Shown here piece after piece: positions 9,684 to 21,996 of a DNA stretch of 25,596 nt. A program made the position numbers and the translations under genes. The DNA comes from a virus: positions 1-25,596 of IMG/VR virus record IMGVR_UViG_3300025030_000388. One strand, given 5' to 3'. Under the pieces are notes generated by a model that did no database searches, was not told where the DNA came from, and saw only the letters and a list, made by a program, of their open reading frames with translations. How positions within the stretch are numbered: the stretch's first letter is position 1; each line of letters opens with the position of its first letter.

Positions 9684-10100
9684 TTAATTCTCCTCTTCTG
9701 GATTAAACTGAAATCCACATGACGAACAAACCATACCATCTAATCCCATAATTGTATTATAACTTCCACACTCAGGGCAATCATATTCATCTATAGATCC
9801 CGCTTGACGTTCAGTGTAATCCGTTTCCGGTATTTTGATATTACAAATATGATTTTGGTTATAACAACCACAAGGATATTCTTTAAACACATCCACATCA
9901 ACACAATGAACACAACCAACTTTAACAGTTACATATTGACCAATATAAGGAATCAATGAATCGTGTTGCCAATCACTGTTTACAAATTTAACAACTCCAC
10001 CCTTACGCACCATTCTCCATCCATATTCGGATACACCATCAGGAGCAAGAACATCATTAGGATATCCGTTTAATCTTTCTCCTCGTCTTCTTTTACTCAT
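9684..10100 (-). CDS. Zinc-ribbon hypothetical protein, 138 aa
   Basis: The basic N-terminus MSKRRRGERL is followed by a beta-rich middle with CVHC and CGCYNQNHIC, and a C-terminal zinc ribbon CPECGSY...CSSCGFQF. Two metal sites are possible. An earlier in-frame ATG (10118) falls inside the upstream 37-aa gene; the ATG at 10100 follows GGGTGGG and overlaps that gene's end, so I chose it. Function unknown. Confidence 0.6.
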   Translation of the reverse strand: MSKRRRGERLNGYPNDVLAPDGVSEYGWRMVRKGGVVKFVNSDWQHDSLIPYIGQYVTVKVGCVHCVDVDVFKEYPCGCYNQNHICNIKIPETDYTERQAGSIDEYDCPECGSYNTIMGLDGMVCSSCGFQFNPEEEN

Positions 10101-10206
10101 TATCCCACCCATCATCATTCCAAGATTTTTCGTATTCCTCTAAATAAGATTCAGGAACGATTTCATAATTTGTATTCAACATAGCTAACTCATCTTTACT
10201 TAACAT
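10093..10206 (-). CDS. Leader peptide-like small protein, 37 aa
   Basis: First gene of the leftward operon. A perfect AAGGAG lies 7 nt before the ATG at 10206, and the -10 box is about 31 nt upstream. It encodes a short acidic peptide starting MLSKDELAMLNTNYEI and ending DDGWDNE. It overlaps the next gene by 8 nt (ATGAGTAA), so it may serve to couple translation. The N-terminal ML..DEL..L pattern is shared with the 48-aa peptide at 9322-9468. Confidence 0.6.
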   Translation of the reverse strand: MLSKDELAMLNTNYEIVPESYLEEYEKSWNDDGWDNE

Positions 10207-10236
10207 AATTAACTCCTTATCGATTTATTAATTTAT

Positions 10237-10265
10237 ATTTTAACACTAATTAGGTAAGAAGTCAA
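10237..10265 (-). promoter_or_regulatory. Sigma70-type promoter of the leftward early operon
   Basis: On the minus strand there is TTGACT (10265-10260), a 17-nt spacer and TAAAAT (10242-10237). Transcription would start near 10230, just upstream of the AAGGAG of the 37-aa gene. The -35 context CTTGACTTCTTA is identical to that of the rightward promoter at 10317, with which it forms a back-to-back pair. Confidence 0.8.
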
Positions 10266-10283
10266 GGTTAAAATTCGTCAAAA

Positions 10284-10291
10284 GATAAATA
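10284..10291 (+). promoter_or_regulatory. Putative late promoter (GATAAATA) upstream of the RNA region
   Basis: An exact copy of the octamer found before the late genes, lying between the two divergent sigma70 promoters. It would start rightward transcription near 10298 and run into the putative structured RNA and the HNH gene. Confidence 0.5.
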
Positions 10292-10316
10292 AATTACGAT
10301 CACCTAAAAATAAAGC

Positions 10317-10345
10317 TTGACTTCTTAAATTAAACCGTGTATAAT
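10317..10345 (+). promoter_or_regulatory. Consensus sigma70 promoter, rightward
   Basis: TTGACT (10317-10322), a 17-nt spacer and a perfect TATAAT (10340-10345). The predicted start is near 10352. No open reading frame follows for about 500 nt, so the direct product should be a noncoding RNA or a very long leader of the HNH gene. Confidence 0.82.
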
Positions 10346-10362
10346 GTCAAATTATTAAATCG

Positions 10363-10399
10363 ATAATCCGAAATTAATCTGAGCATAATCCGAAATTAA
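10363..10399 (+). repeat. Direct repeat, 15 nt twice
   Basis: ATAATCCGAAATTAA occurs at 10363-10377 and again at 10385-10399, 22 nt apart (two helical turns). It lies at the very start of the putative RNA, just after the sigma70 start site, so it could be a protein-binding site on DNA or a repeated element in the RNA leader. Confidence 0.6.
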
Positions 10400-10750
10400 A
10401 TCTAATTTAACTTGAAGTAGGTGAGGGGAAAGAATCAAATTGTAATTTTATATTCAGTTTAACTTTTGGTTAGAGTGAGTCTATTTAATGCGCGGTTGAT
10501 CTGGCGGCGTACAAAGGGTGAATATAAAATAGCTACCACCGTGGGATTCTATTCGCAGGTAGCGGGTCAGGGACATTACTACAGACCTAGAATAGCCTCT
10601 GCTAAGAGAGTGAAAGTGTAGTTAAAGTCAATTCACTTAGTTGGTAATTGACCCCTAGTGTATTCCAAAAATGAATGCGTGTTAACTAGAGTGTCTAAAC
10701 TAGATGTAAAAATCTAGGATAGTAGAGGTTTGCCCTTTAGGAGCAAAATC

Positions 10751-10770
10751 TTAAATATTATAATATTTAA
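10751..10770. repeat. Perfect 20-bp AT-only palindrome
   Basis: TTAAATATTA followed directly by its complement TAATATTTAA. It sits just after the hairpin at 10729-10747 at the probable 3' end of the structured RNA. It could bind a dimeric protein, or help end the transcript as a weak AU stem. Confidence 0.6.
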
Positions 10771-10859
10771 TCAAATAAGATTATAAACGAGCGAAGCGAG
10801 TTATGAGCGAAGCGAATACATTATAATTAATGGCTAGAACTATATCCATAAGGTGAATA

Positions 10860-11525
10860 ATGAATAAATTTTGTAAAGTAATCTGTGAAGATACTCAAGA
10901 AATAGTTTTCACTTATGAAGATTACATGAAAACTAAACATTGGAAATTAACTAGAGACAAATTTAAGAAATCAAATAAGACTAATGGTAGATGTTATGTT
11001 TGTAATTCAAAATACGAAATTCATTATCATCATTTAACTTATGATCGTATAGGTAAAGAAAGATTAACAGATTTAATTGAGTTATGTTCTTATTGCCATA
11101 GGAAGGTACATAATAGAATATCTAGAGAAATTTCTGAAGTAAAGAATTCAATGTTTATTGTGGACTTACTTAAAGAGGAAAGAAACAAAGATTTTTATTA
11201 TAAGAAATTTAATTCACCAAAACCTATTTCTATTAAGAACAGATTTAAATGTTCTGGCAAAAGATATGAATCAAATAGATCAGATATGTTAAAGTACTTA
11301 GAGATATTTGGTATCACATATAATATTACTGATATTCCCAAAAACGAAATATTACTTAGTAAGGTTCTCTCTATAAATGAGAAATGTAAAATTTATGAGG
11401 ATGAAACAATATCTGATTATATTGGCAGATTAATGAATAATCATTATAATCAAAGAAGAGAAAAGGAACTACAAAGATTATCTGATTTAGAAAAGACTAG
11501 AATGACCAGACAAAATAATAGGTAG
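10860..11525 (+). CDS. HNH endonuclease, probably homing type
   Basis: Residues 45-84 hold an HNH/McrA-like fold: CYVC (45-48), IHYHHLTYDR with the His-His pair at 57-58, then LCSYCHRKVH (75-84) with the second CxxC. The remaining 130 residues are basic and helical and probably bind DNA. AAGGTG lies 6 nt before the ATG. The gene points against its neighbours on both sides, follows the putative RNA, and is bounded by an inverted repeat and a hairpin. These traits fit a free-standing homing endonuclease or a mobile element. It is not the large RuvC-HNH (IscB-like) type, being only 221 residues with no RuvC segment. Confidence 0.8.
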   Translation: MNKFCKVICEDTQEIVFTYEDYMKTKHWKLTRDKFKKSNKTNGRCYVCNSKYEIHYHHLTYDRIGKERLTDLIELCSYCHRKVHNRISREISEVKNSMFIVDLLKEERNKDFYYKKFNSPKPISIKNRFKCSGKRYESNRSDMLKYLEIFGITYNITDIPKNEILLSKVLSINEKCKIYEDETISDYIGRLMNNHYNQRREKELQRLSDLEKTRMTRQNNR

Positions 11526-11553
11526 ACTAAGATTTCTAATTAGTCTACCTATT
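11517..11553. terminator. 14-bp hairpin after the HNH gene, possibly bidirectional
   Basis: AATAGGTAGACTAA (11517-11530) and TTAGTCTACCTATT (11540-11553) form a perfect 14-bp stem with a 9-nt loop. The HNH stop codon (11523-11525) lies in the left arm. It stands between converging genes (the HNH gene rightward, the 84-aa gene leftward), where a two-way terminator is expected. A/T-rich flanks on both sides are short. Confidence 0.65.
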
Positions 11554-11578
11554 AAAGTTTCAATCCATTTCGCTTCGC

Positions 11579-11833
11579 TCATGGAACTTCGTAGTATATA
11601 TTTTCCTTTGATATATTTATATCTTTCTTAGCTAATACTACTCCTTTACTAAATGAATTATATCTAGCACTACCCATACTATAAGGATTTTCATATTCAT
11701 CTCCATTCAATATGTATTCTCTATATCCACTAAAGAAATATATTAGATGAGTGGTGTTACTATCTTGATTGCTATTCAACTCTTTAATAATATCTTCCAT
11801 CATATCAAATGAACTAATTTTAAGACCCATCAT
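11579..11833 (-). CDS. Hypothetical protein, 84 aa
   Basis: Not recognised. Acidic and helical in the first 25 residues, then HLIYFFSGYREYIL and an Asp/Asn-rich part. It begins in a TAATG overlap with the NADAR-SLOG gene, whose last codons supply the ribosome site GGAG. Its stop codon is inside the right arm of the inverted repeat that flanks the HNH gene, so its C-terminus may have been altered by that element. Confidence 0.58.
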   Translation of the reverse strand: MMGLKISSFDMMEDIIKELNSNQDSNTTHLIYFFSGYREYILNGDEYENPYSMGSARYNSFSKGVVLAKKDINISKENIYYEVP

Positions 11834-12621
11834 TATTCTCCTTTGTTAATTTTGTAAACAAATACTCTTAATCCCCTTGAGGTTGCATAATCAATCATAT
11901 GCTGCGTACCTTTACTCCCATTAGTCACAGCAATTAATGAGTCAGCATAATCTCCCATTTGTTTATTACGAATAGGACCAGCGGCATTCTTGAGATTTTT
12001 CCAGTCAGCAGGAAACTCCTTAATCTTAATGTTATGCTCCTTGGCGTATTGTTCACCTAAAGTATCAACTCCCTTAGCTTTACCAGATACCACCTCAGTA
12101 ATATTAAATCCACTTTTCTTAATTGCTTTTAATACTAAAGAATAATCAGTGATATCTCGACTACCAGCTATAATAGTCTTACCTTCATATTGTAAGTTTT
12201 CTCTAATCTTCATGATCATCTTACCTAAGTAATTCTTCCCCTCAATATCAACACATTTGTCACAAACACAATCTCCAAAGTGGTTATCGTGCCACAGGTT
12301 TTGTTCGATGATCTGTTTATTTCCAGTTTCAAGTAACCAAGATTTACAAGGCTCTTTCTCAAATTTTTGTTTAAGAAGATGCCACATAATCTTATTTTTA
12401 ATCTCGGCCCAATCATGTCTAATTTTAACAGTCTTACTTAATTTTTTAATTTCTCCTGAAGAATATTGATCACTGACACAAGTCTTCTTCCATTCTTCAT
12501 CAAGAGACTTAGCTGATTGATAAGCATGTTCAACTGAGATAAATTTGACTCCATGTAAAATAACTGGAACCTCAAACATGTTACTCAACCATCTATAGTT
12601 ACCTCTGAATTTATTAATCAT
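11833..12621 (-). CDS. NADAR-SLOG (DUF2493/YspA-like) fusion protein
   Basis: Two nucleotide-related domains are joined. Residues 1-142 are a NADAR (YbiA-like) domain: FRGNYRWLSNM (5-15), EHAYQSAK (31-38), NLWHDNHFGD (108-117) and the closing NYLGKMIMKIR (130-140). Known NADAR enzymes are N-glycosidases; some remove ADP-ribose from guanine in DNA, others act on riboflavin intermediates. Residues 147-260 are a SLOG/YspA-type Rossmann domain: IIAGSRDITD (150-159), VVSGKAKGVDTLGEQYA (177-193), GPIRNKQM (215-222), NGSKGTQHMI (235-244). SLOG domains bind nucleotides or ADP-ribose derivatives. A CDC...C insert (118-123) may bind metal. The ATG at 12621 has GGAG 5 nt upstream. Confidence 0.85.
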   Translation of the reverse strand: MINKFRGNYRWLSNMFEVPVILHGVKFISVEHAYQSAKSLDEEWKKTCVSDQYSSGEIKKLSKTVKIRHDWAEIKNKIMWHLLKQKFEKEPCKSWLLETGNKQIIEQNLWHDNHFGDCVCDKCVDIEGKNYLGKMIMKIRENLQYEGKTIIAGSRDITDYSLVLKAIKKSGFNITEVVSGKAKGVDTLGEQYAKEHNIKIKEFPADWKNLKNAAGPIRNKQMGDYADSLIAVTNGSKGTQHMIDYATSRGLRVFVYKINKGE

Positions 12622-12851
12622 TTCTGCTCCCACTTATCACAGATTTCGTCCCCATCAAAGATATCATAAAATTCAGAATGATTAATATCCTTACGAATAC
12701 ACTCACTAAATCCATCAAAATAACTATGAGATTTACAAGTCCAGCATTTTTTGTTAGCTGGATTAAATGAACATTTTAATTCATGTGTTGCTATAATGTT
12801 AGGGCTTTCGTTAGTTTCAAAACAATAATTACATTTCCATATTTGTTTCAT
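12618..12851 (-). CDS. Small Cys-rich zinc-finger-like protein, 77 aa
   Basis: Contains CNYC (8-11), a His and Cys around 23-27, CWTC (36-39) and two later cysteines, consistent with one or two zinc sites. Its TGA overlaps the ATG of the NADAR-SLOG gene (12618-12621), so the two are probably co-translated. Function unknown. Confidence 0.6.
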   Translation of the reverse strand: MKQIWKCNYCFETNESPNIIATHELKCSFNPANKKCWTCKSHSYFDGFSECIRKDINHSEFYDIFDGDEICDKWEQK

Positions 12852-21012: not shown

Positions 21013-21996
21013 ATGTCAAGGAAGAAATGTAGTAAGTGTGGTGAAGAGAAAGAATTTAATTTAGAGAAATATTGTTGTGATGATTGTTTTAGAGATTACA
21101 GTAAAGAATATTATAAAAAGAGATCAAATAGAATAATATCTGATATTCCAGAAACTTTAACTTGCACTGAATGTAGGATGGTTAAGCCTATAACAGATTT
21201 TGTAAATTCAAAACACGGAAAATATGGCAAGGAAACTAATTGTAAAATCTGTTATAATTTAAAAAAGAAAATTTCATATCTTAAAAAACATCCTTTAAAA
21301 ATTAAAGAGGAGTATATTATACCAATTGAGAAGAAATGTAACGGATGTGGAGAAATAAAATCATTAGAGTTGTTTGATGTAAGAAATGCTTCTCCAGATA
21401 AAAGATCTTCTCATTGTAAAGAGTGCTGCAAAAATAGAGCAAAGATTTATATCCAAAGAAACAAAACAACAGAAAAAGTAATTCCAGAAACCAAAGTGTG
21501 TTATAAATGTAAAATAGAAAAATCAAAAGAAGAGTTTTATAAATCAAATTCTTTTGTGTCTGGATTAAGCGGGATATGTAAAAGTTGTTCAAGGGAATAT
21601 GAAACAAATTTGTCAGAGACGTTATTAGAAAAAAGAAGAGAACGCGATAGAAAATATTGTGAAGCTAATAAAGAATTGGTTTCTGCTAGGAAAAAAATTT
21701 ATAGACAGTCATTACATGGTAAAAATAAATACGCAGAACATAAACAAAAAAGAAAAGCAAAAAAGAAAAATTTATACCATGCTAAGTATGATAGATTAGA
21801 AATATTTTCTCAATTTGATAATACGTGTTTTAAATGCGGAGCAAAAGAAAACTTACAAATAGATCACATTATACCAATAGATAGAAAAGGGCATGACGCA
21901 GAATACAACTTGTGTGTTTTGTGTAAACACTGTAATAGCAAAAACATGCATCGTGTCCTACATCTTTCTTTACTGAAGACGAGTTTGAAAATTTAA
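21013..21996 (+). CDS. HNH endonuclease with tandem zinc fingers, probably homing type
   Basis: 327 residues. Several repeated Cys clusters precede the nuclease: CSKC (6-9), CTEC...CKIC, CNGC...CKEC and CYKC...CKSC, each with 'F' and basic residues after the second Cys, as in recombination-endonuclease-like zinc repeats. A long basic helix (about 200-255) follows. The C-terminal HNH domain has CFKCGAKENLQIDHIIPIDR and NLCVLCKHCNSKN. AAGGAG lies about 7 nt before the ATG. It is inserted between the portal/transferase genes and the protease gene gp21, a spot where T4 itself has head genes, so it is likely a free-standing homing endonuclease. Confidence 0.82.
   Translation: MSRKKCSKCGEEKEFNLEKYCCDDCFRDYSKEYYKKRSNRIISDIPETLTCTECRMVKPITDFVNSKHGKYGKETNCKICYNLKKKISYLKKHPLKIKEEYIIPIEKKCNGCGEIKSLELFDVRNASPDKRSSHCKECCKNRAKIYIQRNKTTEKVIPETKVCYKCKIEKSKEEFYKSNSFVSGLSGICKSCSREYETNLSETLLEKRRERDRKYCEANKELVSARKKIYRQSLHGKNKYAEHKQKRKAKKKNLYHAKYDRLEIFSQFDNTCFKCGAKENLQIDHIIPIDRKGHDAEYNLCVLCKHCNSKNMHRVLHLSLLKTSLKI

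Follow-up and report, generated by a model that had tools for sequence, protein, structure and literature searches.

A noncoding stretch of about 500 nt in a fragment of a T4-like phage, tentatively read as the leader of the HNH endonuclease gene that follows it

The question raised by this locus is whether a long gene-free stretch in a T4-like phage encodes a structured RNA of its own or belongs to the gene that follows it. The window, i.e., the whole 25,596-nt stretch of DNA analyzed, is a fragment (25.6 kb) from a T4-like phage and encodes a T4-type portal, a UvsW-like helicase, and SbcC and SbcD homologues; its left half contains mostly leftward operons and its right half rightward late genes. 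A gap without genes extends from 10208 to 10859 (∼652 nt), with ∼508 nt of it 3′ of the position at which early transcription is predicted to start. The 3′ end of the gap adjoins a rightward open reading frame (ORF) for an HNH endonuclease, which a preliminary description of this DNA did not mention. Gap and HNH gene form a reverse-oriented unit with leftward genes on both sides (Table 1). The reading that we favor, tentatively and with a confidence just short of even, is that the stretch serves as a long 5′ untranslated region of an HNH gene of the homing-endonuclease type, free-standing and oriented opposite to the two leftward operons between which it lies. This is the simplest reading; a new RNA class was neither established nor excluded.

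The stretch is noncoding. Between 10350 and 10860, each of the six frames contained 10 to 23 stops, and the longest open run spanned 52 codons; the frame that contains it scored 0.00 at best over 50 codons. Codon scores were at or below zero in all six frames, compared to +0.15 to +0.50 for the genes of this phage, and no frame, translated with X at stops, had a PHROGs match below an E value of 0.1. A decayed gene was, therefore, ruled out. The preliminary description had reported a gene-free stretch of 430 nt; its noncoding nature was borne out, while the gap proved to be longer. The stretch was also, as had been described, comparatively GC rich, reaching a maximum of 0.46 per 150 nt (range for the putative leader, 0.37 to 0.46) against a window mean of 0.326 (standard deviation, 0.052). 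The GC content of the HNH gene was ∼0.25, sharply below that of the leader. A similarity between 10384 to 10455 of the leader and 11008 to 11089 of the HNH gene was within chance.

Both an early and a late promoter had been proposed upstream of the stretch, and both motifs were upheld. The motif AGATAAATA, one copy of which starts at 10283 and corresponds to a late octamer previously placed at 10284, occurred 10 times in the window versus 1.17 times expected, a number reached by none of 100 shuffles. As this motif was overrepresented and the copies were mostly located just 5′ of rightward late genes, it is very probably the late promoter of this phage. A generic scan for sigma70 sites was unremarkable (32 sites in the window versus 30 in shuffles); support for the early promoter at 10317 to 10345 came instead from its leftward twin and from similar promoters preceding other leftward operons in the window. 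The divergent early promoter regions (10217 to 10269 on the minus strand and 10313 to 10366 on the plus strand) were 78% identical over 53 nt, inverted and 52 nt apart. The identity extended past the hexamers. With promoters of both types, the stretch would be transcribed from one or the other throughout infection, and early and late RNA polymerase might each produce an mRNA comprising leader and HNH gene.

Table 1. Positions of predicted and observed features in and around the noncoding stretch
Feature	Positions	Strand	Basis or remark
Short ORF, 37 aa, opening the leftward early operon	10094..10207	-	AAGGAG ribosome-binding site and ATG; downstream of promoter 10265-10237
Early-type promoter, TTGACT-17-TAAAAT, leftward, mirroring that at 10317..10345	10237..10265	-	Sequence scan
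Putative late-promoter motif, AGATAAATA	10283..10291	+	One of 10 copies in the window
Early sigma70-type promoter, TTGACT-17-TATAAT	10317..10345	+	11/12 consensus positions; predicted start ∼10352
22-nt tandem repeat, ATAATCCGAAATTAA present twice	10349..10398	+	At predicted early transcription start
Noncoding leader or candidate RNA	10352..10859	+	No coding signal; GC up to 0.46
12-bp Watson-Crick helix, ATTTTATATTCA (10445-10456) with TGAATATAAAAT (10519-10530)	10445..10530	+	Fold; further pairs inside
Hairpin GCTACC/GGTAGC, whose loop may form a pseudoknot with 10588-10595	10532..10563	+	Hairpin pair probability, 0.99
Best-supported structured domain	10590..10731	+	z -4.65 (300 shuffles), somewhat inflated as ends were picked after viewing the fold
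Left arm of imperfect inverted repeat, with two copies of GAGCGAAGCGA	10753..10843	+	Repeat score reached by 0 of 500 dinucleotide shuffles
HNH endonuclease gene, 221 aa, homing-endonuclease type	10860..11525	+	PF01844, phrog_8060, phage relatives
15-bp perfect hairpin (11516-11554) between convergent transcripts	11514..11557	.	z -6.8 on +, -5.7 on -
Right arm of inverted repeat, overlapping the end of leftward ORF 11579-11833	11541..11626	-	Counterpart of the left arm

Part of the stretch probably folds, as judged by comparison of predicted structures with shuffled sequences. Across the full 511 nt, folding was no better than in the shuffles (z, −0.56), and a core from 10435 to 10759 reached a z value of −2.1, near the edge of the background of the window itself. 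The strongest signal came from the domain at 10590 to 10731, in which an 11-bp helix (10594 to 10604 with 10720 to 10730) closes around several hairpins with a pair probability of 0.92 in the local fold; among windows of 142 nt across the fragment, ∼1% reached a z value of −4. A helix as long as the 12-bp one was found in 1 of 300 dinucleotide shuffles. The many complementary pairs that had been described thus hold for this domain and this helix but not for the stretch as a whole, and the pseudoknot that had been suggested at 10528 to 10563 was not above chance, as the complementarity of its loop was matched by ∼10% of shuffles.

The protein encoded downstream matched PF01844, its sole detected Pfam domain, with an E value of 2.7e-4, just above the cutoff of that family, and phrog_8060 with an E value of 2.7e-19; its relatives in phages carry an HNH endonuclease annotation. 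P0001, modeled alone, had a pLDDT of 45, and the predicted structure was unusable. The ORF is preceded by an AAGGTG ribosome-binding site. No terminator-like site was detected between the promoters and this ORF, and an mRNA leader is, therefore, the default reading. The leader reading rests on position, strand and the lack of an internal terminator, with the endonuclease genes of T4 as precedent; in its favor are noncoding sequence, early and late motifs upstream, an HNH ORF on the same strand and one domain folding above chance. A late promoter combined with RNA structure that covers the ribosome-binding site has been described for I-TevI, I-TevII, I-TevIII, segB and Aeh1 mobE (PMC2988022). 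The present locus resembles such genes in belonging to a T4-like phage, in having its own late promoter motif and in the predicted pairing of its ribosome-binding site. It differs in that an early promoter stands in tandem with the late one and in that its leader of ∼500 nt far exceeds theirs, which consist of one hairpin.

By analogy, the folded leader, aided by a weak hairpin that covers the ribosome-binding site, could limit or time translation of the endonuclease. The ribosome-binding site and start codon were partly to mostly paired in the predicted transcripts, but the hairpin was not unusual (z, −0.5) and would be common to both transcripts, so that, unlike I-TevI, it would provide no switch with time. 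Bases at the very start of the late transcript (10300 to 10305) may pair with the ribosome-binding site (10851 to 10856) at a probability of ∼0.5, a six-base match of a kind that chance can produce. If the stretch is a leader, the tight control of phage endonuclease genes would extend to a distant T4-like lineage, with a leader of unusual length and a tandem early/late promoter.

Two other observations sit less comfortably with a leader and would fit two separate units. One is the contrast in GC content between the stretch and the HNH gene. The other is an imperfect inverted repeat of ∼90 nt, with GAGCGAAGCGA at its core, which bounds the HNH gene and leaves out the noncoding stretch. Its score of 30 was reached by none of 500 dinucleotide shuffles and was the highest in the window for the left arm, the next unrelated place scoring 20. 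Near the right arm, the hairpin at 11514 to 11557 has a T-rich run on its leftward side and is, therefore, taken to be mainly the terminator of the leftward operon.

Known RNA families and homologues were sought by several routes. The covariance-model search against Rfam, a check proposed in the preliminary description, detected no group I intron or other known family; nothing reached a gathering score and only chance-level matches appeared at an E value of 10, in agreement with the earlier failure to recognize known RNA signatures. The positive control, the T4 nrdD intron (105 bits), covers group I introns and not GOLLD, ROOL or HEARO. Searches for homologues of the noncoding stretch by blastn (phages and plasmids) and with DNA patterns (IMG/VR and GTDB genomes) yielded none, nor did protein scans of IMG/VR with HNH, portal and SbcC and of GTDB genomes with HNH. 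The collection scans require exact shared words or patterns, and diverged relatives may escape them. Two DNA patterns gave four hits in IMG/VR, all judged from the sequence and local alignments to be chance: one lay within coding sequence unrelated to the leader (L010), and the others were GC-rich sequences with no similarity outside the pattern region (L022 to L024). For eight of nine pattern hits in GTDB, the match was limited to 19 to 29 bases and was attributed to chance. A hit in a Lachnospiraceae intergenic region (L025) matched at 25 of 27 bases, aligned no further, had no Rfam match and was likewise judged to be chance. Three portal relatives (L005, L011 and L012; 81% and 66% identity) lacked both the RNA and the HNH gene, but all three are fragments. 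The HNH relatives inspected had no long noncoding stretch 5′ of the HNH gene, a further point against the leader reading. In one of the related phages (L011, 2480 to 3484), an ORF of 334 aa, in which CxxC motifs recur and whose C terminus is HNH-like, was observed shortly after the portal gene; this ORF is possibly another endonuclease insertion.

A rather unlikely alternative is that the stretch is ordinary intergenic filler, made up of promoters and recombination leftovers at an endonuclease insertion site and free of selected structure. The chance-level folding over the whole length and at the pseudoknot is what such filler would give, the searches could show no conservation, and the tandem and inverted repeats suggest rearrangement. 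Against this, 500 nt of noncoding DNA would be costly in a tightly packed phage, the GC content is well above the window mean, and the domain at 10590 to 10731 folds beyond what filler would lead one to expect.

Free-standing homing endonucleases often settle next to conserved genes, and the stretch could be such a gene: an independent, trans-acting structured RNA gene, downstream of which the HNH endonuclease was inserted later. An older RNA gene of this kind would be compatible with the difference in GC content and with an inverted repeat that brackets the HNH gene without the RNA, and the above-chance domain and 12-bp helix agree with it. There is also a precedent in phage ICP1, in which an abundant ORF-less transcript of ∼800 nt has been described (PMC7567579). 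Both are long noncoding stretches between phage genes, outside a tRNA region; the ICP1 transcript was shown by RNA sequencing, whereas the present stretch is known from sequence and precedes an HNH gene. The absence of a homologue in any collection searched, of an Rfam match, of a terminator of its own and of above-chance folding over the whole length counts against an independent RNA gene, which we consider unlikely. The discrete, ornate RNA envisaged in the preliminary description was unsupported, as no homologue for a covariation analysis was found, overall folding apart from one domain was at chance and no terminator was detected between the stretch and the HNH gene.

A more specific form of this proposal, that the stretch represents a hitherto undescribed phage RNA family, large (∼400 nt), structured, trans-acting, transcribed from early and late promoters and with the HNH gene settled beside it, appears quite unlikely. 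GOLLD and ROOL, the nearest idea in the preliminary description, are usually found near tRNAs, although this is not obligatory; no tRNA or tmRNA was detected in the 25.6-kb window, which is a fragment. Like GOLLD (RF01998) and ROOL (RF03087), the stretch is phage borne, noncoding, hundreds of nucleotides long and partly folded. It differs from them in having no match to their covariance models, at the gathering score or at an E value of 10, no tRNAs in the window, no above-chance overall folding and no homologues found. For GOLLD and ROOL, assembly into RNA-only cages was demonstrated in 2025 (PMC12286853). A stand-alone RNA at this locus would be an addition to a small set of large phage RNAs whose function is unknown.

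Two readings that tie the RNA to the nature of the HNH gene fared worst. A degenerate or highly divergent self-splicing group I intron carrying the HNH gene is very improbable: HNH genes are frequently found within group I introns of phages, and a structured RNA 5′ of the ORF would suit one, but the conserved core (RF00028) had no match at an E value of 10 in a search sensitive enough for typical group I introns, as judged from the T4 nrdD control, and the neighboring genes lie on the opposite strand, leaving no interrupted gene on the plus strand, so that this reading was largely refuted. Equally improbable is the reading as a guide-type RNA for the HNH protein encoded next to it, comparable to HEARO or omega RNA with IsrB or IscB, since the position of the RNA directly 5′ of an HNH ORF, as in HEARO (RF02033) with IsrB, and a weak NCBIfam match to the HNH domain of IscB are set against the lack of a HEARO or omega RNA match in Rfam, a small protein of 221 aa with no other IscB or IsrB domain detected, HNH relatives without the RNA, and an IscB score of 21 bits versus a cutoff of 175, which reflects the HNH domain.

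Two other loci in the window were recorded. The leftward ORF at 11833 to 12633 encodes a NADAR domain fused to a YspA/SLOG-like domain, with a subthreshold match to the model of a NADAR family anti-phage protein; in a phage, such a fusion may be a counterdefense gene. A single rightward ORF at 21013 to 21996 contains matches to endonuclease VII (residues 158 to 310), HNH (272 to 311) and a Lar-like restriction-alleviation family (48 to 155) and is possibly a composite.
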